A stretch of DNA of 64,000 nucleotides from Zygnema cylindricum (lineage: Eukaryota; Streptophyta; Zygnematophyceae; Zygnematales; Zygnemataceae): the NCBI GenBank assembly GCA_037447655.1, contig JBBHKE010001760.1, positions 75,646 through 139,645 of the forward strand. Direction: 5' to 3'. The translations under genes were made by a program, and so were the position numbers. How positions within the stretch are numbered: position 1 is the first letter of the stretch; each line of letters begins with the position of its first letter. Shown here in pieces: positions 1,364 to 61,079 of the stretch. A model generated the notes under the pieces. The model was not told the origin of the DNA, made no database searches, and saw only the letters and a list, made by a program, of their open reading frames with translations.

Positions 1364-1371
1364 CTCTGAAC

Positions 1372-1735: not shown

Positions 1736-1743
1736 CTCTGAAC

Positions 1744-2469: not shown

Positions 2470-2477
2470 CTATAAAG

Positions 2478-2983: not shown

Positions 2984-2992
2984 CTCTAAAGT

Positions 2993-4078: not shown

Positions 4079-6365
4079 TTGTCCGAAGGCAGGGGGGACG
4101 GGGAAGGGGGAATCGGGGGGAGGGATGAGGAATGTCGTTCAATGACCGGGGGTGCGAGGAGGGAAGAGAGATGTTGGGATATCACGAGGAGAGGGATGGG
4201 GGAGAAGGTTGAAGGAGTGGAGTGGGTGAATGGAGGAAGGGGAAAGGGTGAGGGAAAGGGAGGGGAAAGGGTGAGGAGGGAGGATAAAGGACAACGCTAG
4301 GTGAGGGGGGAGGGGAAGGGAAGTGGAGGGGATGGGGGTGGATGTAGTACTAGATCTTCTCAGAGAAAGTCAGTGCAAGGGGAGAGAGGAGGGGGAAGGG
4401 GAGAGAGGCAAAATATGGAGGATTGGGGAACCGTAGGGTTGGCGAAAATCTCTAAGTATAACTTTAAGAGGTGGAGGCGGAAGAGGAAGGGGAAGGAGAG
4501 TGGGGAAGAGATTCAGAGATGGGTTGGGGTAAAGAGTGATAATGTTTGAAGGAGGATGGAGGTAGGGGGGGTGGGAGAGAGATGGAAAGGGGGGAGTAGA
4601 AAACGATTGATGTCACTGGGTGAGGGATGATGTCATTAGGCGAGAGAGGGGGGAGGTGGAGGGGGAGCGTGAAGGAAGAGGATACGGCAATAAGGGAGAT
4701 GATTAGGAGAGTCAAGAGAAAAAGGGAGGTAGAGGAGAGAAGAGAAAGAGCTATGTTGTTTGGAGAGAAGGGAGGGGAGAAGTGAATGGAGAACCCCGAA
4801 CGGGGATGGAGGCGGAAATGGGAGAGAGAGGGAGGAGGGAGTTGGAGTGAATGAGGGAAGAAGGGTAGAGGAAGCAGGGAAAGAAATGGGGAAACTTGTT
4901 AGGAAAGGGAAAGCGTGGGAGAAAGGGGAGAGAATATGGGATTTACTTAAGAGAGGGAAAGTGGGGGGGAGGGGGAGGGATAAAGGTTAGGGAGTGAACG
5001 AGGAATGTTATCTAGAGGGGGAGTGGGAGGGGAGGGGGAGGTTGAGGGAAGGGAGATGGAGGGGCGATGAAAGAATGTGGTATGTCTTGGAGAGGGGTTT
5101 AGCGGATGGATCTTGTTCAATGGAAGAGGGAGGCGGTAGAGAAGGTAGTGAGGCAACAAAAGGTTTTTTTCAGGAGAGAGACAAGAAAAGGGAAAGGGGG
5201 GGAGGAAGGGACGGACTTCTTGTGGTGTATAGGATGAGGGGATCACGAATCTAGTAAGGAAGGGGGGGCGGGTAAGGGAAAGGGAGAGAAGAGAATGAGG
5301 GAATTCATGAGGGAGAGGAAGGGGTAAGGGATGAGCGAGAGGCGGACGGGGAGGTAGAAAGGATTTGGGAGGAGGGAGTGGGGGAAGGGGAGGGGTAGAG
5401 GAAGCGGCAGGGGGGAAGTAAGAGAACAAGGGATCTCGTGAGTACAATGAGGCTATACGGCTGGGGTAGAAGGATTGCTTATTTGAGAGAAGAGGGATGG
5501 GGCAAGGAGGGTGATAAAAAGGAAGTTAAAGGAAATCTGGAATATCCTAAGGTGATGGAGGAAAAAAAAGGGAAAGGGAGTGAGGGGGAAAGGCGTGGAG
5601 AGGGAATGAGGGATCTCGTAAGGATAGGGAGGGATGAGGTGGATATTATGGAGACAAAGGTGGGAGTTTGAAAGGTAACGATTGGCAAGGGGAGGGGGGA
5701 GAAAATGGGGATTTTTTTTAAGAGAGGATGGGGGAGGAATTAAAAGAGAGAGGGCAAGGGGAGAGAGAGGAAAAGAATGTCGGATGTCGTTAGGTTGGGT
5801 GGGAGGGGGAGGGGCATGGGTGAGGGAGAGGGAAAGAGGGGGGAAGAAGAGATCGTTAGGAGAGGAAGGTGGTTTGTTGGGAAATTTTGTTCGAAGAGGG
5901 GAAGGAGGATAGAATAGAATCAGCATAGCCGTGAGAATTGAATCAGGCGGTCAAGAGTGGGAGGGATGAATGTGAAATCGTTGGAGAGAGAGTAAATCAA
6001 AGACTATGTCAAGACAGAGTGGTGAATGGAGGAGGTGGAAGTAGAGGGAAAGGGGTTGGGGGGAGGGAATGAGGGACTTTTTTAGGGGAGGTAGGTTGGA
6101 TGAGAGAGGGAGATAATTAAGGATCCTATGGGGAGAGGGGTCGTAGTGGAAGGAGGTGGGTTCGGGAGAGGGAAAAAGAATGAAGGATTATTTTTGGAGT
6201 GAGAGAGGGGAAGGGGAGAATAAAGGCCGTGGGAGGAAAATGGAGGAAGTTGTCAAAGGATCTTGCTATTAAAGATAATGGTGAGCTAGGAGAAGAAAGA
6301 GAGGTGGTGGGACATGGAAGAGCGGAGGTGGGATGGAAAGATACTTTGAGTGGAGTAATGCTCAA
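4079..6365. repeat. 2.3-kb polypurine (GGGA/GGAA-rich) degenerate repeat tract
   Basis: The + strand is overwhelmingly G and A for about 2.3 kb. The tract is not a pure microsatellite. A degenerate phrase like GAATGAGGGATCTCGTNAGG recurs (for example near 4933, 5295, 5605, 5775 and 6068) between GGGGAGGG stretches. Long open frames inside it arise from the lack of stops in purine-rich sequence and are not taken as genes. It ends about 150 bp upstream of the first recognisable LRR exon. Long homopurine tracts can adopt triplex or G-quadruplex structure. Confidence 0.8.
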
Positions 6366-6518
6366 TTTGGTTGTGAGATCCGCAGGTTACGCAACTTAAA
6401 TTGCACTAATCTTACACTAAACTCTATATTGTCTTTGTTGTGATGAATTTTGAGACAGATGAGGGGTTATGGGGGTGAGTGGAGGGAGAGGAAATGGAAG
6501 GAGAGGAAAGGTGTGAAG

Positions 6519-6629
6519 ATGGAATGAATGGCTATTGACAATCGGGAGGGGGTGTAGTGGTCTTAGTTCATTAGATTTGCAGGGGAGCATTGCGGTAGAA
6601 ATTGGCAACCTCACACGACTGAAAATCTT
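6519..6629 (+). CDS. exon: first recognisable LRR segment
   Basis: The acceptor is AG at 6517-6518 and the donor GTGAGT at 6630. The frame reads a Trp-rich lead, then CSGLSSLDLQGSIAVEIGNL and TRLKIL, which resembles the end of a plant LRR N-terminal cap followed by the first repeat. It begins with the last base of a codon and ends with two bases of a Leu codon, the phase shared by every LRR exon here. The acceptor choice is less sure than in later exons. Confidence 0.6.
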
Positions 6630-9600
6630 GTGAGTGTAGGCTGAACGGGGAAATGTATCTCATATGGCAATTTGTTATAACACTAATTCTATAACCTTTC
6701 TTAGTGTCCCTTATCTGAAAGGGATGGAAATTGTTGACTATGTTTGTGTTCCCTTTAAGTACATAGGATTAGGGTGGTATTGCAAAAAAATGGAAGTGTG
6801 GGAAAAAGGAAAAGTTCTTTTTCTCATAATAGCTAAACAAATGCCGATGAAACATTGTAAGATCGAATGAAAACTTGTAAATGTTTTATTTTGGAATTAC
6901 TTGTTGCTTTCAAGAAAATCCTTTTTAACAAAGAAATGAAAAACTATGTACTCATCCTTGCTATAGGGGAGGCGTTGGTAACTCGGGGCAATCATCACTT
7001 AAATAATTAAATCTTTGAAATGAAAAAAATTTGACCCAAAGTCTAAGTGTTTAAAAGGCTAGCTTCATTTTTTGTATTTTTCTCATTGTTATTTGATTTT
7101 GGTAGGTGGTGGGACAGAATAGAGGGATTTTGTATCATCGGAAACAAAAATTCAGCTTTATTTTTTATTCGCGCAAGTTAAATATTCGATAAGTGCAACT
7201 ATATAGGAATTGGCCAGATTATTATTAGTAGGTTTTTTTACAATTACTTTGAGATGAAGGCACGTGGGAGTTGTATGGGTGGAGATGCGATGTGTCACAG
7301 AGCTCTATCAGACAACGGTTTCACTGGAAGAATTCCAACATCAATCGGTCGACTAACATCCCTCGAAGCATTGTAAGCAATATAGGAGACGTTTTTCTCA
7401 TTGGAAACACCCCTCGAAATATTGTAAGGCAGATTTAAATGATAAAAAATACAATAATGATGTTTAAAAAAATATTATCTAATTTACGGGTCGGGGATAT
7501 GGAAAGGCGAGAGGGTGCTGCGGGGGGGGTGGGGTGGTAATTGGCCAACAACTGGTTATGATCATAACAATTTAAAATTAAAAAAGAAATTTACAATAAA
7601 CACAAAATTTTACAACTAATTTAAAGTAATTAAAATAATTAATTTTATGAACACTTAATTCCAAATTATAACAACACAAATGAAAGAAGTTTTTTTTAAA
7701 TCGACAAAATTAATCAATTATAACAACTAATTTTCATATTAATAATTTATTAATATAAATATAGCAAATACAATAAACCGATAAGTTACTTATGAGTATG
7801 GATTATAAATATTTAATAGGAAATAATGCTTAGTAATATATAGCAGTTGATTTAAACTAATGACAAAACAGGATGATGATAATAACTTCATACACAACAA
7901 TATTAAGTCGGTTTGACTTAAAGGAGTTTGTGAAGTTTGCCTGTGGGGATGCGAGGAGACATAGTGCTCTAAATCAAAACCATTGGAGTGTAAGCATTCC
8001 ATCGTCCATCTGGCAATTGGAATTACTTATGACAGTAAACAAGTGATAATAATTAGTATATTCAGTATAAAAATAATCATTAATAATAATTGATAGTAAC
8101 AATAACTAATAATCAAATATATATTGATGTTAAGTATAATTAATAAATGTAAAACAATAGTAAATTATCAATAAATATTGGAGATAAATAATTGATTGCA
8201 AAATAATCAAATATAAGTGGTTATGCTAATATATAATTGAAGTTAATAAAATACAAAAATAAAATGATAATGTTAATTCATAATAATAAGAAGCTAGTTT
8301 GACCACAAGGGGTTTCTAACATTTGTGGTTCGGGATGGAAAGTGCCACAGAGAGTTGGATGGAAACCAGTTGAGTGGAAGCATCCCATCGTCCATAAGTC
8401 AACTAAAATCTCTTCAAGAATTGTAAGAAACACAAAGAAAATCACCTTTTTCTAATTGGAAACACCTCTCAAAACGTTGTCACACAGATTTTGTAATGGA
8501 TATCATGAAAAAAACAAAAAATACCTTATACAAATTATTATCTATTCTACGTGTTAATCTTGTTGAGGGGTATGGGTATAGAAAAAGGGGCTTAGTGGGG
8601 GGTGGGGAAAGGGTGGTGTCCCGCCAAGGATTGTAAGAAATTTCAGAGATTTATTTTGTTTATAAATTTGAAACACCCTCGAAGACATTGTTACCCAGAT
8701 TTTGTAAATTGGTACCATTTAAGTATAAAACAAGAATAATTCTTTTAAATTATTTTCTATTCTTTGGGGTATCAAAAGTGGGGGGAAGGGGGAGAGGGAG
8801 GGAGGGGTTGTTGTAATAGGTAAGTAAAAACTAATTATGATTATAGAAAATCATAGAAAAAAAAAACATAAATTTTTAGTTTTTGACAAATAATTATTTT
8901 TTTTATTCAATTCTAAATCAATTCTAAACAATATTTTATAAGTCATGAGAGTAACTAGCAGAAAAAAAAAAAACAACGATTATTGATAAAAATAATAAGT
9001 TATAATCAATAATTTATCTATATAAATTAAAAAAAATAACATAAACCGATAACAAATTATAGCCAAATATTAACGACAAATATTCAAGAGATAACCTTGG
9101 AAAAAAATTATCAAAAATAATAGTAACTAGCATTGCTAAATAAATTCTAATACTGTAAATATGAATCATAGTTGTTCAAATCGCATACTGCGCATGAAGC
9201 GAACACGCGAATAATACGTGCATTTAACGATTGAAAAATTCGTTAAAATGCGCTGTACGATTATGCATCCGTACTACTCCGTACATTTGTCAAATTTGAA
9301 TGACTCATGTGCCGCAGTTTGAACATTTTCCGTTAAATGAGCGCTCTCCAATTGTAAATATTTATATAGCTATCGCACTCCATGTGTGTATCGGCTCTTC
9401 TACATCAACTGGTTACGGGCTACCTATCGATAGGCTAGTACGGCAACTTGTAGGGCCAGGTTCAAGACCCGGCCAATACTACTCATTTTGGCAGTTTCAG
9501 TGGCCTTTTCTGTGGCGTCAGCAATGGCGGCTTCTTTGTAGAGGAGTTTTAATGGCGGCTTCTCTGTGAAAAGATATACGTACAGGAATTTAATGGCGAC

Positions 9601-12600
9601 TTCTCTGTGAAAAAGACACGTACAGAAATTTAATGGCGGTTTTTCTATGAAAAGGACACAAGTACAGAAATTTAATGGCGGCTTCTCTGTGAAAAGGACA
9701 CACGTACAGAAATTCAAACTTACCGCGCGTCTCTTTTCGAAAACTGGTCCAACGTCTCTTTTTCAAAAAAAATCGTACAGTTTTTCCGTACAGTTCCCGT
9801 TCAGTTTACCCAACAGAAAGTACTAACAAATTTTCAAAAAATTCCGTACAGCTTTTCCGTACATTTCCCGTTCAGTTTACCGTACAGGAAGTACTAAGGG
9901 AATTTTAACGAATTTTTCAAAAGTCACGAATAATACGTAGTAAACGGCAAATTTGAAAAATTCGTGCGAATTGAACAACTATGATATGAATTAAACTCAG
10001 AAATGGATCAAAATAATAATTCAAAATTATTAATAAGAATCTAGATGGCCGAAAAGGATTTTGGGATGTTTGATTTTAGATGTTTGAGGGCGGGAATGCG
10101 AGGCGTCACATATAACTAGATTACAATTGATACTAATTAATCGTAAAACGTGGATGATTTAAACATTAATAACAACAGTCAACCAGTCTGACAGGTTTGG
10201 AGTGGGGATGCGTAATGTCACAGAGTGCTAGATAAGAACCAGTTGAGTGGAAGCATTCCATCGTCCATTGGTCAACTCACATCCCTCCTGTATTTGTAAG
10301 ATATATCGAAGTATTTTACAATTTTGAATTGGTAGAACAATTTTGTAAATTAATACAAATAATGTAGAAAAAACAAACTATCCTTTTAAAATATTATCTA
10401 TTCCATGGGATATCGAGGGGGGGGGGAGGAGGGGAGGGGCAGAGCGGCTGGTGTTAGATGCATGTTAAAACTAGTTACGATCATTGAAAATCATAGAAGA
10501 AAAAGGACAATCACCTAAAAATCCAACTAATTATATTAAGTTTTTATAAATAATTAAATTTTTATTCGTATTATAAATCAATTGCTAACAATAATCAATA
10601 AATCACGAGAGTGATTAGCATAACAAAAAAAGAAAAGCAACAATTATTGATCATGATAATAACTTATACTCGGTAATTTTTCGATATAAAAATAAATAAA
10701 TAACAAAAACCAAAAACAAACTATAACCGATTATTAATGATAAATATTCAAGAAATAAATTCAATAATAACAATGAAAAATAACAGTAACTAGCATTGCT
10801 AATTAAATTCTAATACTGTACATATAAATTAAACTCAAAAATGGATCAAAATAAAAATTCAAAAATATTAATAAGAGTCTAGATTGATTACGAAGAAGTT
10901 TGGGATGTTTGATTTTGGGATGTTCGAGGGCGGGAATGCGAGGTGTCAAAGAGGTCTATCTGAGAACCAGTTGAGTGGAAGCATTCCATTGTCCATCAGT
11001 CAAATGACATCCCTCCAGTATTTGTAAGATATATGAAAAAATATTTTGGTTTTCTAATAGGAAACGCCTTTAAAACTTTGGTAAGATAGATTTTGAAATC
11101 GATAATAGTAAAAAAAAAACACACGAAAGATCTTATAAGAAATGTTATCTATTCAATTGGTTAGGGTTGTAGATGGTTGGAGCGAGGGTTTGGGGGGGGT
11201 GGTAATAGCCAAAAAGAACTAGTTATGATTTTAAAAATCTATATCAAAAATAAATTAATAACCAACAACAGATATTACAACTAATTGATAGTCATCTTGA
11301 TAAATGATAAAAATAGGTAATCATATCAATAAAAGATTATAAAAAATAACATCAAATAGATGACAAGAGTAATTTTTAGAATCATTAAAATTAATTAGCA
11401 AAACAATTGATATTAAAATTTAGTAATTCATTGAAATAAATAGAAATAAATAAAATAATCCAATAATTTAATAATCATATTTATTTAAAATATTTATGAG
11501 TATAGAATCTTAATTAATATTAAACAACCCATATTGATTCATCGTAGAACATGGATGATTTATAAATTCATTGTCACAAAAGACTATCTACGAACAATTT
11601 GAGTAGAAGCATTCTATTGTCCATTGGTCAACTCATATCTCTCCAGCACTTGTAAGAAATAAAAAGGAAATGTATGCTTTTATAACTGGAAACACCCCTC
11701 GAAACATTGTAAGATAGATTTTGTAACAGATAATAACAATTACAAACAAGAATGTTTCTTTGCAAAAAACTATCTATCTTACGGGTTAGGGTTAGTGGAT
11801 GAGCGGAGGGGCGGGGGTCACCTCCTCTTCCCATATAAAATAAAACGAACAAAATACCCCACTTTGCGTTAGATCAAATTAATAGATAATTGTGAGGTAA
11901 TGATAGATTGTGAGCAAACAATCTTATCTAAAACATTACACTATTTTGGTTAAATTACATGCTTGAGGAAAAAAATACACATTTATGTACATATTGACAC
12001 TTAACTAAAATCAATCCACATTAGAGGGGTAAGTAGCCAAAAGAAAACTAATTTTGATCATAAAAATTAATATGAAAAAATAAATCAATGTAAAAAAACA
12101 TATGTTACAAATAATTTATTGCAATATTATAAATGATTAAAATAGCTAATTTTTTCAACATTTCAATCCAAATAATTACCACAAATAGTTGATACAAGTA
12201 ATTTTTAGAATAGAAAAAAATAAATTAGTGATAATAATTGATAATAGTAGTCAGTATTTATTAATATAACAAAAAAAAAAAAAACCAATACGTTACTAAT
12301 ACTATCTAAAAAAATTAACGAGTAAGTGAATTTTAATTAATACTAGACAATTGATATTAATTAATCGTAAAAAGTGGATGATTTAAACATTAATAACAAA
12401 GTCAGCCAGTTTGACATGTTTGGGGTGGGGATGCGCAATGACACAGATATCTAAATTACAACCAGTTGAGTGGAAGCATTCCATTGTCCATTGGTCAACT
12501 CACATCCCTCCAAATATTGTAAGAAATAAAAGGGATAAAGACGCTTTTGTAATTGGAAACACCCCTCGAAACATTGTGGGATAGATTTTGTAACAGATAA

Positions 12601-15600
12601 TAGTGAATAGAAACAATAATGATCCATTGGAAAGTATTATCTATATCACGGGTTAGGGATGTACATGGGGGAGGAGGGGGGGGGGGGCACCTCCCCCTCT
12701 CATAAAAACTGAATTAGACGAAAAAACCAACGTTGTAGGAGATAAAAAATAGATTGTGAGCAAACAATTTTGAAAAAATTTACAATATATTGGTTAAATT
12801 ACATGCTTGAGGAAAACATTATATATATTCACACGCAAGTATATATGTATATATATATATATATATAGATATATATATATACATATATATACATATAAAT
12901 ACATAATGACACCTAGTAAAATCTAATAACGCGCAAACGTCAACAAAAATGGAAATAATAATGAGCTGAGTAAAGTAGAAAGCTATCGGTAATGTGTCAA
13001 AGACATAAAATTAGAATAGAAAAAAATCAGTTAGTGATGATAATTGATAATAGTAGTTAGTATCTATTAATATAAACATAAAAAGTTAAAATAACTAATA
13101 CGTTACAAATACTATCTATAAAAATTAATGATGAAGTAAATTTTAATTAATACTATACAATTGATATTAAGTAATCGTAAAACGTAGATGATTTAAACAT
13201 TAATAACATCAGTCAGGCAGTTTGACAAGTTTTAGAGGGATGCGTAATGTCACAGAGCTCTAGGTAACAACCAATTGAGTGGAAGCATTCCATCGTCCAT
13301 CGGTCAACTGACATCGCTGCAATACTTGTAAGAAATAAAAGGGAAAAATACGCTTTCGTTATGGGAAACACCCCTCGAAACATTGTGGGATAGGTTTTGT
13401 AACAGATAATAGTAAATAAATTCAAGAATCATCCTTTGGAAAGTATTATCTATTTCACAGGCTAGGGATGTGGATGGGCAAGGGGAGTGGTGGGGGTGGG
13501 CGCCTCCCCCTCCCATAAAAACTGAATTAAACGAAGTAACCAACTTTGTTGCAGATCAAAAGAATAGATTGTGAGCAAACAATTTTCAAAAAGTTTACAA
13601 TATATTGGTTAAATTACATGCATGAGGAAAACGTGATACACATATATATATATCTTTAAATCTAAATACATAATGACACCTAATGAAATCTAATAACGCG
13701 CAAACGTCAACAAAAATGGCAATAATAATGAGCTGAGTAAAGTAAACAGTTATGGGTAATGTGTTAAAGACATAAAATTAATTAGAATAGAAAAAAATCA
13801 GTTAGTGATGATAATTGATAATAGTAGTCGGTAATTATTAATATAAAGATAAAAAATTAAAATAAACCAATAAGTTACTAACATTACCTATAAAAATTAA
13901 TGAGTAAGTAAATTTTTATTAATACTATACAGTTGATATCAAGTAATCGTAAAACATGGATGATTTAAACATTAATAACAACAATCAACCGGGTGGGGAT
14001 GCGCAATGTCACAGGTATTTAGGAAACAACCGGTTGAGTGGAAGCATTCCATCGTCCATCGGTCAACTAACATCCCTCGAATACTTGTAAGAAATATAAG
14101 GGAAAAGTACGCTTTTCTAATTGGAAACACCCCTCGAAACATTGTGGGATAGATTTTGTAACAGATAATTGTAAATAAAAACAAGAACGATCCTTTGAAA
14201 AGAATTATCCATTTCACGGGTTAGGGATGTGGATGGGCGGGGGGAGAGAGGGGGGGGGCACCTCCCCCTCTCATAAAAAATGAACAAAACGAAATAACCC
14301 GCTTTGTAGCAGATCAAAAGGATAGAGCAAACAATTTAAAAAAAGTTTACAATATATTGGTTTAATTACATGCACGAGGAAAACATGATACATATACACA
14401 CACACACACATATATATATATTATATATATGTATTTATATCTAAATACGCAATGACACCTAATAAAATCTCATAACGCGCAAAATTCAACAATCATGGCA
14501 ATAATAATACGATGAGTAAAGTATAAAATTATTAGTATTATGTTAAATGCATAAAATCAATTGCTCTTTTCGTATAGCTCAAGGTGGTACCACAATGGTT
14601 TAGAGTAGGCTAAGATTCTACCTTTTCCTTTTATTTTATGATGTTCTATATATCGGTGCTAAGTTTTCACCGTATGGAATTTTATTTTTCACCAGTCTAT
14701 ATCAGTTCCAAATTTCACAAAATAGTGGTAATTAATCGTTTTCTCATTATTTTTGTGTGCAGGTATTTGAATAATAACCTTTTAAGTGGCTTTATTTCTT
14801 TCCCCCTCGATTCTTGGATAACTATGCCTGTCTTTGACTTTGCCAACAACTTTCTTTCCGGTTCTGCAATAGTGTATAGAGTTAACCCAAATGTTTGCAA
14901 AGCCACTCGTGGGAATTGCTTCAATGTCAGCGATCCTTTGCTGAAAGAATGTTCTTCAACCGTGCAAAGGAATAAATCCCTATGTTTGCAATTTTGTAAT
15001 GCTTCTCAACCAATGGGTGCATGTGGTGGCCGCGGCATCTGCCCCGGTTTGAAAAGATCATGCCTATGCGATGATGACTATTCCACGGACGTGAGTAACA
15101 ACACGTGTACTTTCAGTAAGTCTCTACACTATTCACAATATCCAATCTAATTGATAAGGTGATTGTTTTTGTTTATGGCCCTTTGTCATAACCAACTATG
15201 AGAGCAACACCTGTAGACTCATGTTTTGTGTATTGTGAAGCTTTGTCCACATAAGAGATACTAAGCGGTAGGGAGTTTGTTTTTTATAACGTCTATCACA
15301 AACATGCAGAATAATCAGAGAAACTTATTTTATGTGTTGTAATAGCTTCCTTTACACAACAAGCCTCCCAAAGCCATGAAAATAACTAGTGATTTGCCAC
15401 TCTACGTGTGTGGAGCTGAGTCAATGAATTTCTCACATATGCCTATTTTTGTTCGTTTCTCGAGTCTACGATTAAGTTTTAATAAGTTACCATTGCCTCT
15501 TGCATGAATTGTTGCCTGCCTAAATTGTGTGAGCTGTCCACAATTTTATAGATAGTTGATTTGTGAAATAATTTGGTTATTTTAAATTTGTAGAGCTAAT

Positions 15601-18600
15601 ATCTTAGCTGGTCAACAAGTAGGACTTGGGCATTTTTAAGGGATCACATTTCAATGCACTATACACCATCACGGACAACAACGTGTAAATGTATGTTTTT
15701 TGATGCAAGCCTTTAATCTTTAGTTCTTATCCTTCTTATAAATTTTGCAGAACCTCGTGGATTAGGATTATTAACACCGCCGCAGACATTGTCTAACAAA
15801 ACAAATCAATTTTTCCGTTACGCAAGTTCTGGATATTTGTATTCTAAGGATAAAAAACCATCATGGCTGGTGGCGACCTCATGGAATTGGGTTGCTCAAC
15901 TTCCTCGCAGCATGGTCAAGGACCAATATAGCTGTAGTAAGCACTAAAACACCTTAAATTTCACCCTACATTATTATGGTTGAAATCAAAACTTATTTCA
16001 TTCTCTTAAAACCAACTTTCATAAATGAGTTAAACAACAATTAGGATTAATATAGCGTCACAACCATCGTAGAATGGATTTTCTTGTCTTCATGTTTTTG
16101 AGATTAGACACCAAAGCACACTATGCCAATAGTTGCCGATAAGAAAAGGTTGTTTGTCCCTGTTGTTTATCTTTTGCGATGTGTAGACATATGTTGGATC
16201 GTTACCGCTTTCACTGCCATTGAACATGCATTTTACATTGCAAACGCGGGAACGCAACCTCTCCTTGACTTTCCAGCCGAGCAAATGCTTAATTGCTCTA
16301 AAATTAACTGTGCTAGAGGAGGATGGCCAAACGAAGCTTTTGATTACGCAGCAAATATTGGTCTTATACCATCAAAAAGTTTCATAAATGGAAGTACGTG
16401 CCAATTGGTTAGTGTAAGTCAATGCTAATGCCCTTCTAAACATCCTCATTCTTCTCTTGTCTCTTTCAACTTGTTCCCCTATAAGTATTTTGCCCTCTTT
16501 CCTTTTTTTTCAAATAGATAAATGATATACCAAGGGACCACATAGTTTGTGATGTTGCTTCCTGTTTTCCTTCATGCTTTCTTTGAAGTTTCTTTTTTAA
16601 TATATTTATTTTGATTTTCTTAATGATCTTTTGTGTACTTCGTTCTCTCTCTATGCTTAAGATTACTTTTTGTAATTTTTCAACGACCTTTACAACATAA
16701 GATTCATGGATGAATTTTGCAGAAATTAAACGGATTAAAAATCTTATCGTATGATAGAATTCAAATGAATGGCTGGAAGGGCCTTTTATTGGCTCTTCAA
16801 CAACAACCAGCTGTGGTGGCTATCGAGGCTAGTTCTGATACTTTCAACAACTATGACCCTAAAAACGTGAGCACTATGCTCAAATGTTTAAGTTTTTAGA
16901 ATCAACACATGCCGTTTGGGGAATATCTATTTGATGTGGGACCAGCTTGAAAGTGATGTTGCAAACTTTTTGAAATGCGGAATTTAAATCATTTCGAATA
17001 TCAATGGGATATCCTCAGATGTTCATTGTATCAATCTTCACGGGGTTGTGTGCATTTCTGTGAACTAATTTCACGTGGTACACTATAATTTGTTGTAACA
17101 TGCATGTGTTTTTGATTGGTGTAGGGTGTCTTTGATGACGAGACTTGCTTCTCAAACGGTGTGGACCATGCGGTGTTAGTTGTTGGTTACGATTTGACAG
17201 CCGAAACGCCATATTGGCTCATCCAAAATTCTTGGGGAATCAATTGGGGGGATAATGGATACATGCGTTTAAAAATTTCGAGTGGTTATGGAATTTGCGG
17301 AATAAATACACAACCAGCTATCATACCAATAATAAAGCCGAAACGTAAGTTTGTTGAAAGACATTTTTTCCTTCAAGTTTTGTATGAATCCAAAAGGCTG
17401 TTTAGGAGCATGTAACTATAATCGTAGTTGCTTATTAGTGAATCAAATGAATTTGCGCAATATGAGATAAGATAGATTTGCAAGTTACGTCAGTGGGTGG
17501 AAGTCAAGGTGCGTGATTGGATCCTTACGATTTTTTCCTTTTATACCTTGGGAGCATTTCAGCCAGCGATCTTTGCAACGTAAGAAGTTTTGCACAAATA
17601 CAACAGAATGCTACTTCTGGTCCTGGAAGCATGAACCCATGTGGCAATGGTTTATGTACATCGAACAACAAAACATATACTTGTAAATGTATGGATCAAT
17701 TTGTAGTCGTGAACAACTCAGATGGAACACAAACTTGCGCTCCAGGTGCGAAACAGCTTAGTTGCTTTCAGACTCTGTTTTCAAGCATGTAGAATTAAAA
17801 TTGAAAAAAATAATGAAATTACACACTAAAGTTTTTGGTAATGGTTGAGATTGAGTAAACAACAGAGTAAAAAATCCATAGATGGTGGCGTGAAAGTGCA
17901 TTTAAAAAAGCAATTCGTCCTTCTTTTTATTTTTTTTGGTTATATAGTACTGCAAAATGCATGTTTTTTATTGGAAATTGTTGTACAACTGATATTGGAA
18001 TACAATTTCACTGGCGCGTTAACTAAAAAGCCGTCTCGCATATCCCATATAATTTTTATGCTAAATCAATCACTTTTAATTTTCGGACCACGTGGACTTT
18101 AGATTGTTGCCTTCATTTTCTTATTTTTCTCATGTCACCTGTTTTATTTACTGAACAAGGCCTACGAAATATTCGAGAGGATTATTCTCTAAATGACAAA
18201 AAAAAGCTTCTTGCGAAGGAAAAAACCAAAGAAAAATATTTTTTAATAAACAGTGCATAATCTGCCAACATAACTTCTCCTCCTTGATATTTGCATTTAA
18301 CACAATATCAATCTGCACATACCTTCTTTATTTTGGCTGGTGGAGTTCCTTTGACGAATCTACTTCTGCAAAGAAAAAAAAAAAAAATTCCTAGCTCCCG
18401 TTTGTGCTTTTCAAGCATTATTTTTTTACCCTATTATGGACGTTTGTTATCAAATGAAATTTATCGCACCTTTTTTAACGGCAATTGGCACCGGAACATT
18501 TTAGCTTATTTGTTGCGAGTATAAGTTCAGCGATGAATACTTATATTTGATACATATAGGTGATGACGTTTTCTCCAATTTGTTTACCTAACATAACATT

Positions 18601-21600
18601 ATTGTTTGGTTTTGGGAAAAAAATGATATTTGCTGATTCTAGAGTTAAACTTCGCGGCACTTGAATCAAAGGAAGGAATTTTTTCTTTTGGTAAATTGCC
18701 GTTCACACTTTTTTGGGATATAACGCTCAAAATTTATATGTATTGTATCGGTAGATTTCCTATCGCGAATTAAGATGACCTATATTATCGCTTATTGAGA
18801 GGCGAGGGGGCCCAATATATCGCACGAGACGAATAAGCTTTTAATCATCGATACATACGGAAACACATTATAAATATATACACTAGGACTTAATAATATA
18901 AAGTATTCTGTTGTATACATGTCACGTATCACAATCCGGTATGTACCTTGTGGAACGAATGCATGGAAATATATTATGGACTGTGACACTTAGAACAAAA
19001 TATTTGTACTTTTTAAGACCAAAAGTACAAGCCAGATTAGAACAGGTGTACGGTATGTATTGTACAGTTATCGTGGTAATTTTTTATTTGCATTTCGAGC
19101 CAATATGTTGGCAGAATATTGTGATGAATTCCTTTCCAATATACCCAAACAATAAATCTATTACCGGTAGGTCCAAGAAAGGTAATATAGACTCTGGGTA
19201 TGAGCCTACCGATACACAACACTAGAAAAAATAACCATAGGCTGGTTGAACATTTTTGGTTATTGGAAAGTTTATCCCTAAAGAACCAAGTGAGTGTAAT
19301 CAAAGTTGAAATCTATATTTTCAAGAAAATGGGGAAACGTTATCAGTTTACAAAACACAAGTTCTGTTTAGCCCAAGAAAAATGGATCTGGAGATTTCTT
19401 CTGTAATTTAAGTATTAAGAAGGAAAACGTGCCTTATTCGAAATAGACATGTGTTCCATAATCAAGAATGTGGTTTTCAGCCCGTAATTCTAGCTGTGTG
19501 AGCTTGCTTTGTTCAAGAAAAATCTCAATATAATTTGGTTTCAACACTAGCAATTTTAAATATCTATTTTTCGTTCTATAGGAAGTCTACTGAAACGTAG
19601 AGCGGACTGTTCTCAAGTGGTTCAAGATTGTTTTAATGGCCCCATATTTTTTTTTGCTTAGCCTCTCCATGTACCTTCACATCGCGCAACCCTTGTGGTA
19701 TGGGAACATGCGTGGACACGAAGGACAAACCGGGAGCATATGCTTGCGTTTGTGTGATTGGATATGCTGCGGACGATTCACACGGCTCTCTTTCATGTAT
19801 TCCAGGTGGGTTTTGTGTAATTTCGCCTTGTTGCACATGGTTGGTAACGACTTTCACTCTCACACCATCCGGAAAAGGAATGACATCCTTCAATGATTAT
19901 GATGAGTTGATTATTCCAACAGCTCAAATAGAGAATAATATTTGATCAAAATTTCTACTAATCTAGTCTCAGAAGCAAAACTTATCCTTGTAGATAATTG
20001 AATGGCCTTGCAGACATATATGTTTTCGAAACTCTTTATAGAGTTATGGTTGTCAATTTAAACAAACTTAAGTTCCAAAACGGCCGTTTTATTGATGAAT
20101 CAAATGAAATTTATTGCGCTCTTCAAAGACGCAAAGAAAGTCGTGTGTACATACATTTATATATTTGCTCATTGTTGGGTGGTGACTTGAATTAATTTTA
20201 GGTTTATTTAATGTTGTGAGAGTCTTGTGGTGGATCTTATGTAAGACCCATTTGGTCCTAAAAGAATATGTATGGCAGAACATTTGAGGATAATAACGCC
20301 TCTCGCCTCCCTTTGTCGCTGCCTCTCTTCTGGGCACATTGTGCTAATCAGCGGATCGATAGAAGGTGCATTAGTCTGGTTTTTATCGGTTGTCTGTCCG
20401 TCTGTGTATCGTTTCGTTTCATGCGATCTGATTCTTATTTAGTGCGAAGGACGTGGTATTTAGTCTTGGTCCAGCGCAATCTTAGTTTGTGTTTACTATG
20501 GCGAGTGTCTATCCTTTGGTTAGCTCTCAGTGAGTGTTCGGTGAAGGTTGTTCCCTCGCTGGTAGTAGAGCGTGTGCACTAACGTACCTGCCCTGTCAAC
20601 ATGTTCATGAGCGAACCTGATAGAAGTGTATTTGGTTAAATCTTCTTTGTCTTATGGTGATGCAACGAATCTTCTGCATACGCTTGTGTTGTGCATATCT
20701 TTGGATTGATCCTATTACCACGCTCTCTCTCTCTCCACTTCCCCTCTCTCTCCCTCCCTTTCTTTTTCTCTCTCCTATTGTCTCTACCTTCTCCCTCTCT
20801 CCCTCTCTCCCCTTTTCCCTTATATTCTACCTCTCTATCTCTCTCTAGTTCTCTTGCCTCACCTCCATTCCTTCCTCCCTCCCCCTCTCTATCCCTCCTC
20901 TCTTCTCTCCCCTCTCTCCCTCTCTATCGCTCCTCTCCCTAGTTGTATGAAATGTAACTGTCAGTCGAATCATAAGTTTCCAAGATACAGACGAACATAC
21001 TAGTACGGTAATTTTATGTGGTTCCTTGCACTACTTATGTGGTTGGTAGAATGTTGTATCATATGCTATATAATGCCATAGATATTTTTGTTTTTCCTTA
21101 CTCTTGAATTATTCAAAAATTATAGGAATATTGATGGTCTCTTTTGTTGCACGAGGATAAATGATAACAAATGACCTCATTTAACCCTTTTTTCTTTCAT
21201 TTTGAAGGGTATTGCATTGTTGAAGAAACAGTCATTTAAGATAGATAAACCAAACTGTAGAAACATTCACATTCAGGTAAAGACATAAAAGAATAAATAA
21301 TATGTTGAATTGACGTCACATGTAATTGCATTACCTGAACTTGTAGAGATTCTAAATTGAAATGCTTTCTTGGATATTAAAACGTTTTAGTAAGATCTAA
21401 CTGATATCCACCAATGTCTTCACTTTAACTGGTTTGCTGCAGCTGCCTCTACATTAGGGGCAAAGGAATATGTTGTGCCCGTTGGTGGATCTATTTCTTG
21501 CTCGACCATCTTCACAACATATGGCATCTCACAACAGAAGTTTCTACAACAGAACAAGGTTTCAGTTCTCTGAATTTTATGCACCGTTGTTTGACTTTCC

Positions 21601-23152
21601 TTAGTCAAACTCCTGGTTTTGTTTTCCGATGATGTCTCAATAGAAATTGTCATGATTTTTTGAGAAGGGAATAGTGCAATGGTAGTAGTCTTGATTTCAC
21701 AAATTTATTGTATTTGAATGCTGGCCTAATTCCACTGGGAAAGTACATTTTGGCTGATTTTCAGAACTTGAATTGCAACCAACTTCTTCCAAAAGGTGCC
21801 AAAGTTAATGTCACCAACGCTGTGGAATGTTCTCTATATTATGCAGTGCAAGAGGTAAGTTTTTATTTTTGTGAACCATTCCTAATTCAATTTGTTTTAC
21901 ATTTTTTTAAAGCTTTGCTTGAGCCCTTTTTTCGGTTGATTGCTACTTGTTATGTTCTTGAAATATAGCAATTCTATTATAGGATTTGATTACTTTTGGA
22001 TAGCTGACCTATACAAATTCGAACTTTGTAGGGCGATACATGTCAATCCATAAAGTTTGCTTTTAAAATCGGCAGCAGAGTAGATCTCGGAGGCCCGAAT
22101 TCTCCAAATCCGGACTTGGATTGCTCAAATTTGGTACCTTTTCAACAGGTGCGTCTGGAACACTACAATTCGGAATCTTGTTGCATGAATGGACATTGAA
22201 AGAGAGTACGATGTAAATTTCCCTAATATTTAACGAGGCCGTGTACTTTTGTGTCAACATATCATCATTTAATCATGCAAAACTATTAATGATTTTACCC
22301 TCACTGTTTGTAAAATAAATCCATCTTTGCTAGATATGCATTACGAAGGGAAAATTACCATTTCGTGGACCTTGTACGCGTCCATACATCCTTATGCGCG
22401 GGGAAACGTGTGCAAGCATTATTCGTGATTATATGGGTGGGGACGTGAAAACATTTTATACTCTAAATTCTGGTGTTTATTGTGGTCGTATCCGGTTATA
22501 TTCGAACGATGACAGCACTTTTAAACAAGAGGTGAGATTAATTTGAACACATTAATATTTACCCGATATTGTAATGTCCATAACCAATAGTCATTCTTTC
22601 GAAACACACAAACTATGTTATTTCCCTTTTTGAAGTTTAAAAACAAGGTTGTTCCCATACATTGCACGTATTTTGTATACCATACCCTGTGATTAGGCTT
22701 CACATATTACTATCATGGATGTGAGAATACTATGGTCTTTGCAATCTTCTATAATAAATGATTTTGGCCCTTCTGGTTGCCTTTTCTTGTTAAACTATGG
22801 CTAGCGATTTCTACTACACAACGGCTCTCCACATAAGTGTGCAAGAACTAAGTGCGGCGCATAATGTTTTTTGTGGTTGTTGTATCTCTTTTGCGTCCAG
22901 GTTTGCTTAGACAGTGTGGACCTTGGGGGTGGAGTAAAAAACTGCAATGGAACAGCTGTCACATTGGCAAGCTCAGACACCTGTCCAAGTTTGTCAAAAT
23001 TCTTTAAAGACAATCATAAAACAAAAATAAAGCCCGCATCCTTTCTCACTCTGAATAATTTTGCATGTACCAAGAGTGCACTTGCGAGTGTTCTTGCCAA
23101 AGCCAAAACTAAGGGTACAATTGCCAAAATTTGTACTCCAAAACTGAGATGA
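6519..23152 (+). CDS. LRR - EGF-like - papain (C1A) - EGF x2 - LysM gene (21 exons, 5' incomplete)
   Basis: The gene encodes a predicted secreted or cell-surface multidomain protein. I assembled 21 GT-AG exons whose phases match at every junction, giving about 970 residues to the TGA at 23150-23152. Domain order: about ten 24-residue LRRs, an LRR cap with a Cys-rich EGF-like segment, a C1A cysteine protease with Gln, Cys, His and Asn in their family places, two EGF-like modules, then about four LysM-like modules. LysM binds GlcNAc polymers (chitin, peptidoglycan). LRR and EGF modules mediate protein contacts. A job in recognising and cutting targets at the cell wall or surface is inference. 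The usual I29 propeptide is not visible between the EGF segment and the mature protease. No kinase or membrane segment was seen. The start codon and signal peptide were not found. Unbroken frames across all exons argue that the gene is functional or recently so. Confidence 0.85.
6630..7300 (+). other. intron between the first two LRR exons
   Basis: AT-rich sequence without a further LRR-like reading. It begins with donor GTGAGT and ends with GTCACAG. Confidence 0.55.
7301..7372 (+). CDS. LRR exon (72 bp)
   Basis: It encodes one plant-type repeat, ALSDNGFTGRIPTSIGRLTS then LEAL, with the Leu codon split across the donor GTAAGC. The acceptor is GTCACAG. The sequence differs more from the later exons than they do from each other, so it is probably an older unit. 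Confidence 0.85.
7965..8036 (+). pseudogene. decayed LRR exon copy
   Basis: The sequence still reads as an LRR remnant (SIPSSIWQL) after ATAG, but the usual TT-GTAAG donor is gone and the nearest GT would break the frame. It sits in a duplicated exon+intron unit and is best viewed as a dead exon inside an intron. Confidence 0.65.
8351..8422 (+). CDS. LRR exon (72 bp)
   Basis: Acceptor GCCACAG, donor GTAAGA. It encodes ELDGNQLSGSIPSSISQLKS then LQEL, one 24-residue LRR in the shared phase. Confidence 0.88.
8423..9158 (+). other. LRR intron with truncated unit copies
   Basis: The intron holds partial copies of the duplicated unit: the block GGAAACACC(C/T)CTC...TTGT recurs near 8459 and 8669, and a lone TT-GTAAG-like end lies near 8630. 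These look like further exon+intron duplications whose exons were lost. Confidence 0.55.
9167..9983. mobile_element. MITE family M2, copy b, in an LRR intron
   Basis: An 817-bp element with inverted ends CATAGTTGTTCAAATCGC and the inverse of CATAGTTGTTCAATTCGC. A perfect 8-bp duplication ATATGAAT flanks it (9159-9166 and 9984-9991). The sister intron at about 10811-10850 has the uninterrupted site with one copy of the target, so insertion is shown directly. It contains a minisatellite at about 9520-9716 and no transposase. Confidence 0.9.
9520..9716. repeat. minisatellite of about 42 bp inside M2 copy b
   Basis: Four to five imperfect units built on AATGGCGGCTTCTCTGTGAA followed by AAGGACACACGTACAGAAAT. 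The units vary by a few bases and in length. Confidence 0.85.
10224..10295 (+). CDS. LRR exon (72 bp)
   Basis: Acceptor GTCACAG, donor GTAAGA. It encodes VLDKNQLSGSIPSSIGQLTS then LLYL. A truncated sister unit lacking its exon lies just upstream at about 10085-10130. Confidence 0.88.
10952..11023 (+). CDS. LRR exon (72 bp)
   Basis: Acceptor GTCAAAG, donor GTAAGA. It encodes GLSENQLSGSIPLSISQMTS then LQYL. The intron before it is the empty-site partner of the intron carrying M2 copy b. Confidence 0.87.
11583..11651 (+). CDS. LRR exon, short form (69 bp)
   Basis: The acceptor AG is at 11581-11582 and the donor GTAAGA at 11652. It is one codon shorter than its sisters but stays in frame. It reads LSTNNLSRSILLSIGQLISL then QHL. 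Gly-to-Arg and Pro-to-Leu changes in the GSIP motif suggest relaxed constraint or a weaker repeat. Confidence 0.72.
12447..12518 (+). CDS. LRR exon (72 bp)
   Basis: Acceptor GACACAG, donor GTAAGA. It encodes YLNYNQLSGSIPLSIGQLTS then LQIL. Confidence 0.88.
12836..12905. repeat. (TA)n microsatellite
   Basis: TATATA-rich simple repeat with ACA/GA interruptions in an LRR intron. A related CACA/TATA block lies at 14394-14440 in the next-but-one unit. Confidence 0.85.
13256..13327 (+). CDS. LRR exon (72 bp)
   Basis: Acceptor GTCACAG, donor GTAAGA. It encodes ALGNNQLSGSIPSSIGQLTS then LQYL. The following intron is nearly a copy of its neighbours. Confidence 0.9.
14015..14086 (+). CDS. LRR exon (72 bp)
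   Basis: Acceptor GTCACAG, donor GTAAGA. It encodes YLGNNRLSGSIPSSIGQLTS then LEYL. It is the last of the amplified set before the LRR cap exon. Confidence 0.9.
14763..15115 (+). CDS. exon: last LRR, LRR cap and Cys-rich EGF-like segment
   Basis: Acceptor TGTGTGCAG, donor GTAAGT at 15116. The 353-bp exon starts in the LRR phase with YLNNNLLSGFISFPLDSW. It continues through a second degenerate repeat (FDFANNFLSGSA) into a Cys-rich stretch with about ten cysteines, ending with an EGF-like CGGRGICPGLKRSCLCDDDY. This is the joint between the LRR solenoid and the protease. The phase changes here, which suggests a domain-fusion boundary. Confidence 0.88.
15751..15936 (+). CDS. exon: start of papain-like catalytic domain
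   Basis: Acceptor TTTTGCAG, donor GTAAGC. After a linker of about 40 residues it reads TSWNWVAQLPRSMVKDQYSC, matching the family start (W..VK.Q..C). The oxyanion-hole Gln is codon 15924-15926, six residues before the catalytic Cys in the next exon. Papain zymogens normally carry an I29 propeptide of about 100 residues before this point, and none is evident. Confidence 0.85.
16187..16413 (+). CDS. exon: papain-like catalytic Cys segment
   Basis: Acceptor GTGTAG, donor GTAAGT at 16414. The first codons read N-I-C-W, so with the previous exon the motif is Q-Y-S-C-N-I-C-W, and the catalytic Cys is 16192-16194. Downstream FPAEQMLNC and CARGGWPNEAFDYA match the conserved SEQ.L.DC and GC.GG..  .AF.Y blocks of C1A proteases, including the Gly-Gly of the S2/S3 region. 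Confidence 0.93.
16723..16866 (+). CDS. exon: papain-like middle segment
   Basis: Acceptor TTTTGCAG, donor GTGAGC. It is 48 codons in phase 0. GLLLALQQQPAVVAIEASSD and FNNYDP match the C1A block L..A...QPV.VAI.A....F..Y. Confidence 0.93.
17125..17344 (+). CDS. exon: papain-like catalytic His and Asn segment
   Basis: Acceptor GGTGTAG, donor GTAAGT. It reads GVDHAVLVVGYD with the catalytic His at 17167-17169, and YWLIQNSWGINWGDNGYMRL with the catalytic Asn at 17227-17229. It then closes with GYGICGI. Cys-to-His spacing is about 136 residues and His-to-Asn 20, both normal for the family. Confidence 0.95.
17563..17745 (+). CDS. exon: EGF-like module 1
   Basis: Acceptor CATTTCAG, donor GTGCGA. 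It has 61 codons of phase 1-1 type, common for EGF exons. It reads NPCGNGLCTSNN, YTCKCMDQF and a final C, with the six-cysteine spacing of an EGF-like fold. Confidence 0.88.
17746..19661 (+). other. intron of 1.9 kb between the EGF-like exons
   Basis: AT-rich sequence. No additional in-phase exon with recognisable domain character was found. Confidence 0.5.
19662..19805 (+). CDS. exon: EGF-like module 2
   Basis: Acceptor TTGCTTAG, donor GTGGGT. It is phase 1-1 and reads NPCGMGTCVDTKDKPGAYAC then VCVIGY and a terminal SC, an EGF-like pattern akin to the preceding module, so the pair probably arose by exon duplication. Confidence 0.87.
19806..21442 (+). other. intron of 1.6 kb with a pyrimidine tract
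   Basis: No exon was recognised. A CT-rich simple-sequence stretch occupies about 20719-20940 (runs of CTCTCTC, CCCTCTC). Open frames across it are composition artefacts. Confidence 0.5.
20719..20940. repeat. (CT)n / CCCTCTC-rich microsatellite
   Basis: Polypyrimidine simple repeat inside the intron between EGF 2 and LysM 1. Confidence 0.85.
21443..21558 (+). CDS. exon: LysM 1, first half
   Basis: Acceptor GCTGCAG, donor GTTTCA. It reads EYVVPVGGSISCSTIFTTYG then ISQQKFLQQN, the LysM start (Y.V..G.S..C..I....... .L...N). Confidence 0.82.
21765..21854 (+). CDS. exon: LysM 1 end and LysM 2 start
   Basis: Acceptor GATTTTCAG, donor GTAAGT. NLNCNQLLPKGAKVNV completes the first LysM (N..LNC..L..G..V). 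It is followed by ECSLYYAVQE, which begins the next module. Confidence 0.85.
22032..22148 (+). CDS. exon: LysM 2
   Basis: Acceptor CTTTGTAG, donor GTGCGT. Joined to YYAVQE it gives GDTCQSIKFAF then NPDLDCSNLV, a clear LysM with the GDTC and N-P-x-L-x-C signatures common in plant proteins. Confidence 0.87.
22334..22531 (+). CDS. exon: LysM 3
   Basis: Acceptor TTGCTAG, donor GTGAGA. It reads CTRPYILMRGETCASIIRDY then FYTLNSGVYCGRI, a third LysM (Y....GETC.SI...L.N..V.C..I), whole within one exon. Confidence 0.85.
22901..23152 (+). CDS. terminal exon: LysM 4-like and stop
   Basis: Acceptor GCGTCCAG. It reads VTLASSDTCPSLSKFF then FLTLNNFACTKSAL and GTIAKIC, a diverged fourth LysM-like unit. 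TGA lies at 23150-23152. No C-terminal membrane segment or kinase follows, so the protein is predicted to be soluble or wall-bound. Confidence 0.82.
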   Translation, partial: VCLDSVDLGGGVKNCNGTAVTLASSDTCPSLSKFFKDNHKTKIKPASFLTLNNFACTKSALASVLAKAKTKGTIAKICTPKLR

Positions 23153-24129: not shown

Positions 24130-24480
24130 GTCTGAAAAAAAAAATCATAAGAAAAAAAATAGCTAAATAACATGCGAGCAACTTACATTTCTAGCCAGAA
24201 GGCGTCGTTAAAATAAAGAAGGGATGGGAGGGAGCAAAGGTACGGTTTTAACGCAGAGACGAGAAGAGGGGAGGGGAGAGGAATGGAGAGGAATGGAGAG
24301 GAATGGAAGCGAGAGGTGGGGAGAAGAGGGAGAGGAGAGACGGTGAAAGGGAAAGGGGGGGAGGGGAGGGGAGGGGAGGGGAGGGGGGGGGGGGGGGGGG
24401 GGGGGGAGGGGAGGAGGGACGGAAGGAGGGAGGCAGGCAGGGAGGAGAAAAGTAGAGGGCAAGATAGGGCAGAGAGAGAG
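24130..24480. repeat. direct repeat, copy 1, with GGGGA tract and G-run
   Basis: The block from GTCTGAAAAAA through AGCCAGAAGGCGTCGTTAAA and ACGGTTTTAACGCAGAGACG to the GGGGA repeats recurs at 25219-25570. This copy holds an uninterrupted run of more than 20 G residues (about 24383-24406), a strong G-quadruplex candidate. The two copies lie 1.09 kb apart in the same orientation. Confidence 0.85.
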
Positions 24481-24544
24481 GAAGAGGTACAGTAGGAAGA
24501 GCGAGAGACAGGATATGGATATTTCAGATTTGGCATTTGGCAAA

Positions 24545-25054
24545 ACATTTTAGGCAGCGGTTTGGGATTCCTGAATACCGAAACGTATTACCGAACTTGA
24601 AACGTCAAAACCTATTTAAAACGTTTAAACACTCGCAAAGCTGTCTTAACCTACGTTTTTTTCTTGTTTTTTTAAGTGATGAGTAGTTTTACGTCAAGTC
24701 GAACAAACTTTGGAAATTTCGAAATTAAAACTAAAGTAAAAAAAATATTTTTCACTTTTTATCTCTTGATTTTTTTTATGTATTTTTTTAGTTTTCCCTT
24801 ATAATTTCTTACGACTATATTTATAAATTCCGTATGTCCGTACAGTACCTTTAGTTAAGGTTACAGTATGGACAGAAACATCGAAGCCCTAAAATTAAAA
24901 TAAAATGTTGACGACGATTAGAGTTTAGACTTTAGACCCTTTTTTTTAATGTTGAACTTGAAAAATACGAAGCACAACAGTAATTTAGTGCGGAAATTCT
25001 AACTGCCATCAAAGGTAAAAGACAAAAATCCTAAAGGACTAAAGTACTAAACGC
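24545..25054. other. non-coding spacer between direct repeats
   Basis: No gene was recognised. Confidence 0.4.
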
Positions 25055-25195
25055 TACACCGTGAATCGCTATTAGCGTACATGACGCTAATTGGGGTACC
25101 CCTTTTTTTGGGGCAAATTCTCAAATAGAATAAAGTACGCTAAATGTTTTTGCACGTTATTTGAGGTACCCCGCTCAATGCGGTTCATAACTGTA
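25055..25195. mobile_element. MITE family M3, copy b (TA-flanked, diverged)
   Basis: Starts TACACCGTGAATCGCTATTA and ends in a diverged inverse of the same sequence (TACA...TGAA.CGC..T.AGCG). It shares the internal GGGGTACC motif with the better-preserved copy at 35941-36151. At 141 bp it is shortened. There is no coding potential. Confidence 0.65.
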
Positions 25196-25218
25196 ATTTA
25201 GTGTCCTTTTAAATAGTG

Positions 25219-25590
25219 TGTCTGAAAAAACAAATCATAAGAAAAAAAATAGCTAAATAACATGCGAGCAACTTCACATTTCTAGCCAGAAGGCGTCGTT
25301 AAAATAAAGAAGGGATGGGAGGGAGCAAAGGTACGGTTTTAACGCAGAGACGAGAAGAGGGGAGGGGAGAGGAATGGAGAGGAATGGAAAGGAATGGAAG
25401 CGAGAGGTGGGGAGAAGAGGGAGGGGAGAGACGGTGAAAGGGAAAGGTGGGGAGGGGAGGGGAGGGGAGGGGAGGGGAGGGGAGGGGAGGGGAGGGGAGG
25501 GGAGGGGGAGGGAAGGGGAGGGGAAAGGGGGGGGGAAGGGCATGTGAAAGGGAATGGAGGAGAGGGGAGGGGAAAGGGAAGCGGGGGGAA
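25219..25590. repeat. direct repeat, copy 2, with (GGGGA)n
   Basis: Second copy of the block at 24130-24480, close to identical up to the GGGGA tract. Here the pentamer GGGGA is repeated about 13 times in a row (25450-25512). The tract difference (G-run versus pentamers) fits replication slippage after duplication. Confidence 0.85.
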
Positions 25591-25805
25591 AGGGAAAACT
25601 GGTATCAAAAAAAGGAATTAGATAAAAACCCCGCGGAAGACTTGTATAGAAAGTATATATATATAAAAAGACAAGAAAAAAGGTCAAAATAATGATAAAA
25701 AATACAATAAAAAGATAAACAAAGGTTAACAAAAGCACAAAAGAAAGTTTGGGAAAAGAGAAAAAAAAAACGAATGTTAAGAGAAGGATAAAAAGCATTC
25801 AAAGG

Positions 25806-38625: not shown

Positions 38626-38690
38626 GTCGATTGGCTAATGGATAGTGGTGCAAGTCACCACCTTTCGCCACAATGTGATTGGTTCACTCA
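38626..38690 (+). pseudogene. element D protease active site
   Basis: WLMDSGASHHLSPQCDW is the intact copia-type D-S-G-A motif and its flank. Confidence 0.85.
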
Positions 38691-38745
38691 CCTTTCTCCT
38701 CTTTCATCTCCTATATAGATTCATTTAGGCGACGACCGCATTCTA

Positions 38746-39850: not shown

Positions 39851-39859
39851 TCAATGAAA

Positions 39860-61075: not shown

Positions 61076-61079
61076 AACA

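Follow-up and report, generated by a model that had tools for sequence, protein, structure and literature searches.

Introduction

The combination of a papain-like (C1A) protease domain with LysM modules was already noted in 2019 in a survey of plant lectins, which reports that C1A peptidase domains co-occur with LysM and that vascular plants have not kept combinations of C1A with lectin domains (PMC6362431). In its passages on these combinations, the survey names neither leucine-rich repeats (LRRs) or EGF modules together with C1A-LysM, nor a missing I29 prodomain, a mechanism or the species holding such proteins (PMC6362431). The form with LRRs is little described: no description of it was found in the literature searched (supplements and most subscription papers were outside the scope), and the word "papain" occurs 0 times in the main text of PMC11096116 and PMC11289646. 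The nearest functional analogy is the tomato Cf-2/Rcr3 system, in which a receptor-like protein reportedly acts outside the cell in concert with a papain-like protease that is secreted (PMC7468133, PMC11371160). Here we describe a gene of the alga Zygnema cylindricum (Zygnematophyceae) that encodes LRRs, EGF-like modules, a C1A protease and LysM modules in one chain. It lies in a stretch of 64,000 nucleotides (assembly GCA_037447655.1, contig JBBHKE010001760.1, positions 75,646 to 139,645, forward strand), which is called the window below. Cf-2 and Rcr3 are the products of two genes, whereas the window protein is a single polypeptide without an evident membrane anchor.

Relatives were collected by homology searches of a large mixed protein collection, the largest listing comprising 120 of 251 matches; domain scoring in this listing was limited to the candidates sharing most words. 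With the plant papain-like proteases (the groups RD21, SAG12, CEP and Rcr3/Pip1) the window protein shares the fold and the residues of the catalytic domain. Among the matches listed, these proteases mostly possess an I29 prodomain (PF08246) and some a granulin tail (PF00396), whereas the family of the window protein carries LRR, lectin or EGF modules ahead of the protease and EGF-EGF-LysM behind it, and is separate in a protease-domain tree. Tandem LysM modules are common to the window protein and the LysM receptors CERK1, CEBiP and LYK, and weak matches to LYK-type LysM models can be found in some relatives. However, the window protein has its LysM modules behind a protease and, unlike these receptors, no kinase and no membrane-like C-terminus; the latter two features (the C-terminus as judged by hydropathy only) also distinguish it from LRR receptor-like proteins and kinases.

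Results and discussion

The gene and its product

One gene on the plus strand with 22 exons (6567-23152; Table 1) was rebuilt from the window sequence. It has 2,944 coding bases and encodes 981 residues plus a TGA stop codon in a single open frame; all introns are of the GT...AG type, and the exon phases agree throughout. The protein consists of ~11-12 plant-type LRRs, an EGF-like module, the C1A protease, two further EGF-like modules and four LysM-like modules. Pfam detected Peptidase_C1 (E 1.4e-38), LRR_14 (5e-28), LRR_1 (3e-22) and LysM (5e-8) in the spliced protein, where the EGF-type matches were below the cut-off. With modules scored singly, EGF 3 and LysM 2 were above the cut-off, EGF 1 and EGF 2 below it. 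LysM-like 4 is backed by the alignment with relatives and by a strand-helix-helix-strand pattern in the structure model of the relative P0003. We consider it highly probable that this gene, with the architecture given, belongs to a streptophyte-algal family whose members are secreted, multi-domain proteases of the papain type. A preliminary description of the same DNA had proposed one gene with the order LRR-EGF-papain-LysM, which is borne out by the open frame, Pfam and the relatives. Its unbroken frame and consistent phases stand as well, its count of 21 exons does not; position 6519, given there as the beginning of the gene region, is not a gene start.

The 5' part of the model requires caution. 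Motif searches, tblastn with the N-terminus of P0002 and a profile built from the N-termini of five relatives revealed neither a start codon nor a signal peptide or LRR N-cap in positions 1-6566, the best matches of these searches being known LRR exons; the 5' end of the model is therefore left open. Each of the ten LRR exons has a length divisible by three, so that any of them could be skipped without closing the frame, which by itself is thus no proof that each is used. A pattern scan for LRR-type exons with splice sites gave nine matches on the plus strand, all within the gene, and none on the minus strand or when 6501-15200 was shuffled 30 times (order-2 Markov); note that the pattern was devised after the exons had been seen, and that exons 1 and 11 do not match it. 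Exons 3 and 7 are the least certain ones. Exon 11 is uninterrupted and encodes the LRR cap together with EGF 1; this joint thus requires no splicing. No second copy of the gene was seen in the window, where the model matched nothing but the gene itself by tblastn (E up to 0.01).

The Gln-Cys-His-Asn catalytic set is kept in the window protease, as seen from sequence reading and PDB sequence alignments, and identifies it as a C1A enzyme. The catalytic residues are thus present, and modules of binding type flank the protease, both as proposed earlier. For the wall anchoring suggested at the same time there is no basis beyond the LysM modules: a hydropathy scan revealed no C-terminal membrane-like stretch in the window protein (best 19-residue mean 1.09; GPI prediction was not included). 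Likewise, no kinase domain was detected in it with Pfam. The protein has 14 N-glycosylation sequons and 43 Cys residues and is probably secreted.

A family with a constant core

Besides the window protein, at least 20 family members (P0001-P0008, P0012-P0014, P0016, P0020-P0026, P0028) are present among the matches listed. The closest of the listed relatives, P0001, shows 55% identity over 69% of a 700-residue query, and P0002 shows 41% over 91% of it. LRR, C1 and LysM are combined in the same order in P0002 (1041 amino acids, with LRRNT_2), P0012 (1468 amino acids, its LysM slightly under the Pfam cut-off) and P0020 (1178 amino acids), all labelled by their source as complete open reading frames (ORFs) of transcripts, in the gene model P0013 (with LRRNT_2; labelled Mesen1, which we take to be Mesotaenium), and in P0024 and P0005 from Closterium. 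A search for this order in other proteins, suggested in the preliminary description, was therefore positive, and the view that the order belongs to no known plant family has to be abandoned, as relatives having it occur in Closterium and Mesotaenium. Since the order recurs in relatives of other sources, including transcript ORFs, the joints of the window gene are not an artefact. Eleven of the 20 relatives carry a name or a decodable label, and all of these are from Closterium or Mesotaenium; nine carry none. Both genera are zygnematophyte algae, a group close to the land plants. As 120 of 251 matches were listed, the family may also have members in land plants.

The order C1A-EGF-EGF-LysM of the window protein was confirmed by alignment with the relatives, and this core is constant across the family, although Pfam found no LysM at E up to 0.01 in P0014 and P0016, the latter sequence being incomplete. 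In contrast, the N-terminal part varies: it can consist of LRRs, of LRRs and a legume lectin (P0014, P0016), of two legume lectins (P0021), of EGF only (P0003, with 690 residues and without LRR) or, as judged by eye, of low-complexity sequence (P0025, P0026). In two Closterium predictions, P0007 and P0008, C1A-LysM runs into an unrelated DUF3675-type tail (PF12428); these are probably fused gene models.

In the protease-domain tree, one branch parts 18 family rows from 26 ordinary papain-like proteases (95/78; 98/92 for the 17 family rows without the long-branched P0006). The 26 were chosen from the 111 ordinary proteases listed, and 18 of the 21 family proteins were included (P0007, P0008 and P0016 were left out). 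This topology makes a single origin of the family likely.

Absence of the I29 prodomain

I29 is absent in all 14 scanned members that extend far enough upstream (18 were scanned, none with I29; P0006, P0008, P0022 and P0023 begin in or just ahead of the protease, and P0001, P0004 and P0007 were left out), but present in 102 of the 111 other proteases among the 120 of 251 matches listed. In the window protein, Pfam gave no I29 match at E up to 1, and the ERFNIN motif has no match in the 150 residues ahead of the protease. Strict ERFNIN is matched by no more than 45 of 109 ordinary proteases, which gives the Pfam result the greater weight.

A segment FRYASSG precedes the window protease. By eye, strict FR(Y/H)xSxG is present in seven of 15 rows (window, P0002, P0012, P0013, P0016, P0020, P0021) and a looser form in six, none being clear in P0025 and P0026. 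We rejected the interpretation of this segment as an ordinary propeptide tail, since the loose pattern was found in just 4 of 109 ordinary proteases.

Structure models were obtained for P0002 (11 alignment rows; mean predicted local distance difference test score, pLDDT, 64.5; predicted template modelling score 0.44), whose protease part was low and which was not used for domain packing, and for P0003 (65 rows), which was better. The structure matches listed, 50 in each of two comparisons, were papain-type enzymes and thus uninformative on LysM structures. With pro-papain and procathepsin K, the alignment of the model extended ~17 residues beyond that obtained with papain or one cathepsin K entry in the mature form. 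This is a mere hint of a propeptide-like segment ahead of the protease: the proenzyme rows kept low-confidence stretches at a higher root-mean-square deviation (2.3-2.4), model residues 68-86 have a pLDDT <50, the alignment likewise starts at residue 98 for cathepsin K entries that bear N-terminal tags, and I29 proteases were among the input sequences of the model.

Duplication and divergence of LRR exons

The LRR exons of the window gene have been copied in tandem. Units U8-U10 are copies that include the introns and are ~80-82% identical over the parts aligned by blastn. The ten LRR exons are of phase 2-2, the EGF exons 16 and 17 of phase 1-1, and exons 12-15 as a block again of phase 1-1; these classes fit what is expected of module shuffling and would agree with exon shuffling in the green line.

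Ligand-facing codons were taken as the five x positions of xxLxLxx; rate tests omit exons 1, 3 and 7, which do not have 72 nucleotides, and Fisher tests were made on U8-U10 only. In these three units 10 of 15 ligand-facing columns are variable, compared with 123 of 567 in the flanking introns (p = 0.0003) and 8 of 54 in other codons (p = 0.0002). The non-synonymous rate in these units reaches 0.47 at the ligand face, against 0.034 in the remaining codons and intron distances of 0.12-0.14. Furthermore, no random five-codon set reached the observed value (0 of 1,500 and 0 of 3,000 for the seven-exon and five-exon sets, respectively). The proportion of non-synonymous differences (pN) exceeds that of synonymous ones (pS) at the ligand face only in U8-U10 (0.47 versus 0.32, the latter from 2.3 synonymous changes). 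The faster change at the ligand face than in the adjacent introns is suggestive of diversifying selection, and the recognition arm seems to have been diversified by the copying of exons.

Possible function

We propose, with a probability of about 0.5, that the window gene encodes a secreted protease that is docked on N-acetylglucosamine (GlcNAc) glycans by its LysM modules and aimed by its LRRs, and that it serves defence rather than wall remodelling. Secretion of the protein would agree with the hydrophobic N-termini of several relatives, whereas the leader of the window protein itself was not found. The LysM modules could hold it at the cell surface on GlcNAc-containing glycans, e.g. microbial chitin or peptidoglycan, while the concave face of the LRR arc, where change is faster, may read a protein or peptide ligand. 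The tethered protease would then cut substrates close to the captured target. It appears to work without the inhibitory I29 bundle, only a short segment remaining ahead of the protease, which may lie in the cleft. The LRR arm could alter its length and specificity by the tandem copying of symmetrical LRR exons. As the recognition arm is varied while the catalytic and LysM core is kept, a role against microbes is preferred to housekeeping wall turnover. To our knowledge, the extracellular means of streptophyte algae against chytrids and bacteria are poorly known; a protease with a protein-recognition arm of its own, a glycan-binding tail, no standard prodomain and varied arms among relatives is a testable candidate for defence.

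Several observations speak against this proposal. Concerning the protease, Ser replaces the catalytic Cys in two of 15 readable members (P0005, P0014). The support for the tree split in the Shimodaira-Hasegawa-like approximate likelihood ratio test (78) is under the star level of the tool, and P0005, P0006, P0014 and P0028 were flagged as long branches. P0025 and P0026 have no hydrophobic stretch in their first 40 residues. LysM 1 and LysM 3 alone are below the Pfam cut-off, and LysM-like 4 has no match. The missing 5' end and the odd exons 3 and 7 would be compatible with a decayed LRR part. As for selection, only three copies carry the test, which is not significant for U9-U10 taken by themselves (p = 0.096); the framework overall is not slower than the introns (p = 0.3; p = 0.058 for codon positions 1+2); pS is also raised at the ligand face, to values above pN (0.61 versus 0.56 in the seven-exon and 0.65 versus 0.52 in the five-exon set); pooled pN/pS over seven exons is ~0.57; and an apparent excess of change at the ligand face could also arise if the flanks underwent gene conversion.

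The strongest competitor, although rather unlikely, is that the same secreted protease acts in the alga's own matrix, with LysM on wall glycans and LRR/EGF on wall glycoproteins, and trims matrix proteins in growth, cell separation or gamete release. The 11 nameable family proteins are from walled zygnematophyte algae, but the main wall polymers of this group are not known to include GlcNAc polymers. Moreover, the faster change of the LRR ligand face and the varied recognition arms are unexpected for a fixed self-ligand. A precedent for such a matrix function is the GNA-linked M11 peptidase of Chlamydomonas, which is involved in wall degradation according to the lectin survey (PMC6362431).

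The proposed defence protease can be specified further, though this is speculative and we would bet against it: it may be an extracellular immune sensor-protease uniting a receptor arm, a guarded or weaponised protease and a chitin-type anchor in one polypeptide, whose arm is renewed by LRR-exon duplication under diversifying selection and is replaced or joined by legume lectins in paralogues. Cf-2 carries LRRs, and such a protein, if real, would be a cis-linked equivalent of the Cf-2/Rcr3 system, which takes two genes.

It is improbable that the protease part is mainly a sensor or decoy in which the binding of microbial protease inhibitors or peptides, not cleavage, is the signal. Rcr3/Cf-2 reportedly provides the precedent (PMC7468133, PMC11371160), and the Ser-bearing members would suit it; however, the catalytic Cys is kept in the window copy and 12 others of the 15 readable members, and the window protein has neither a kinase nor a membrane-like C-terminal stretch. 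Finally, a decaying locus with LRR exons as remnants beside a working EGF-protease-LysM gene is very unlikely: each of the ten LRR exons has an open frame, the right phase and splice sites, the cap and EGF 1 share an exon, and relatives have the same joint. The unfound 5' exon, the irregular exons 3 and 7 and the existence of the LRR-free P0003 would suit it.

Table 1. Exons of the LRR-EGF-C1A-LysM gene in the window (nt, nucleotides; bp, base pairs)
Feature	Position	Strand	Description
Exon 1	6567..6629	+	LRR 1, 63 nt, phase 2-2; by eye similar to LRR 1 of P0002; no exon(s) found upstream
Exon 2	7301..7372	+	LRR, 72 nt
Exon 3	7965..8042	+	degenerate LRR, 78 nt; weaker donor AA/GTGATA (slash, exon end); least certain exon
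Exon 4	8351..8422	+	LRR, 72 nt
Exon 5	10224..10295	+	LRR, 72 nt
Exon 6	10952..11023	+	LRR, 72 nt
Exon 7	11583..11651	+	LRR, 69 nt, one codon short
Exon 8	12447..12518	+	LRR, 72 nt, unit U8 of tandem exon-intron duplication
Exon 9	13256..13327	+	LRR, 72 nt, unit U9
Exon 10	14015..14086	+	LRR, 72 nt, unit U10
Exon 11	14763..15115	+	last LRRs, Cys-rich LRR cap, EGF-like 1; phase 2-1; EGF-type Pfam matches below cut-off
Exon 12	15751..15936	+	linker containing FRYASSG, beginning of mature C1A domain
Exon 13	16187..16413	+	C1A protease, starts at catalytic Cys (NIC-W)
Exon 14	16723..16866	+	C1A protease
Exon 15	17125..17344	+	C1A protease, catalytic His (VDHAV) and Asn (NSWG)
Exon 16	17563..17745	+	EGF-like 2, phase 1-1
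Exon 17	19662..19805	+	EGF-like 3, phase 1-1
Exon 18	21443..21558	+	LysM 1
Exon 19	21765..21854	+	end of LysM 1, start of LysM 2
Exon 20	22032..22148	+	LysM 2
Exon 21	22334..22531	+	LysM 3, below Pfam cut-off; strand-helix-helix at matching place in P0003 structure model
Exon 22	22901..23152	+	LysM-like 4, no own Pfam match; stop codon
Tandem LRR exon-intron units	10224..14762	+	~630-860 bp each

Other features of the window

A Copia-type retrotransposon is located on the plus strand at 37346-42117; it comprises a gag-like ORF (by eye), integrase/SH3 and RVT_2 (E 2e-64), followed by an ORF that is RNase H-like by eye. Fragments of copia type (gag pre-integrase, integrase, gag) are present at 42509-43501, 54439-54954, 56756-57121 and 58421-58897. 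Further pieces at 60213-61658 are copia-like by eye, 61176-61658 having no Pfam match. Two ORFs, 32697-33038 and 49219-49548 (the latter without a Pfam match), resemble by eye gypsy-type reverse transcriptase and integrase. On both sides of the gene there are long purine-rich, strand-asymmetric tracts (4081-6500 and 24200-25600), with a GC skew of +0.76 at 4001-6000, and a segment near 24140 is, by eye, repeated near 25228.
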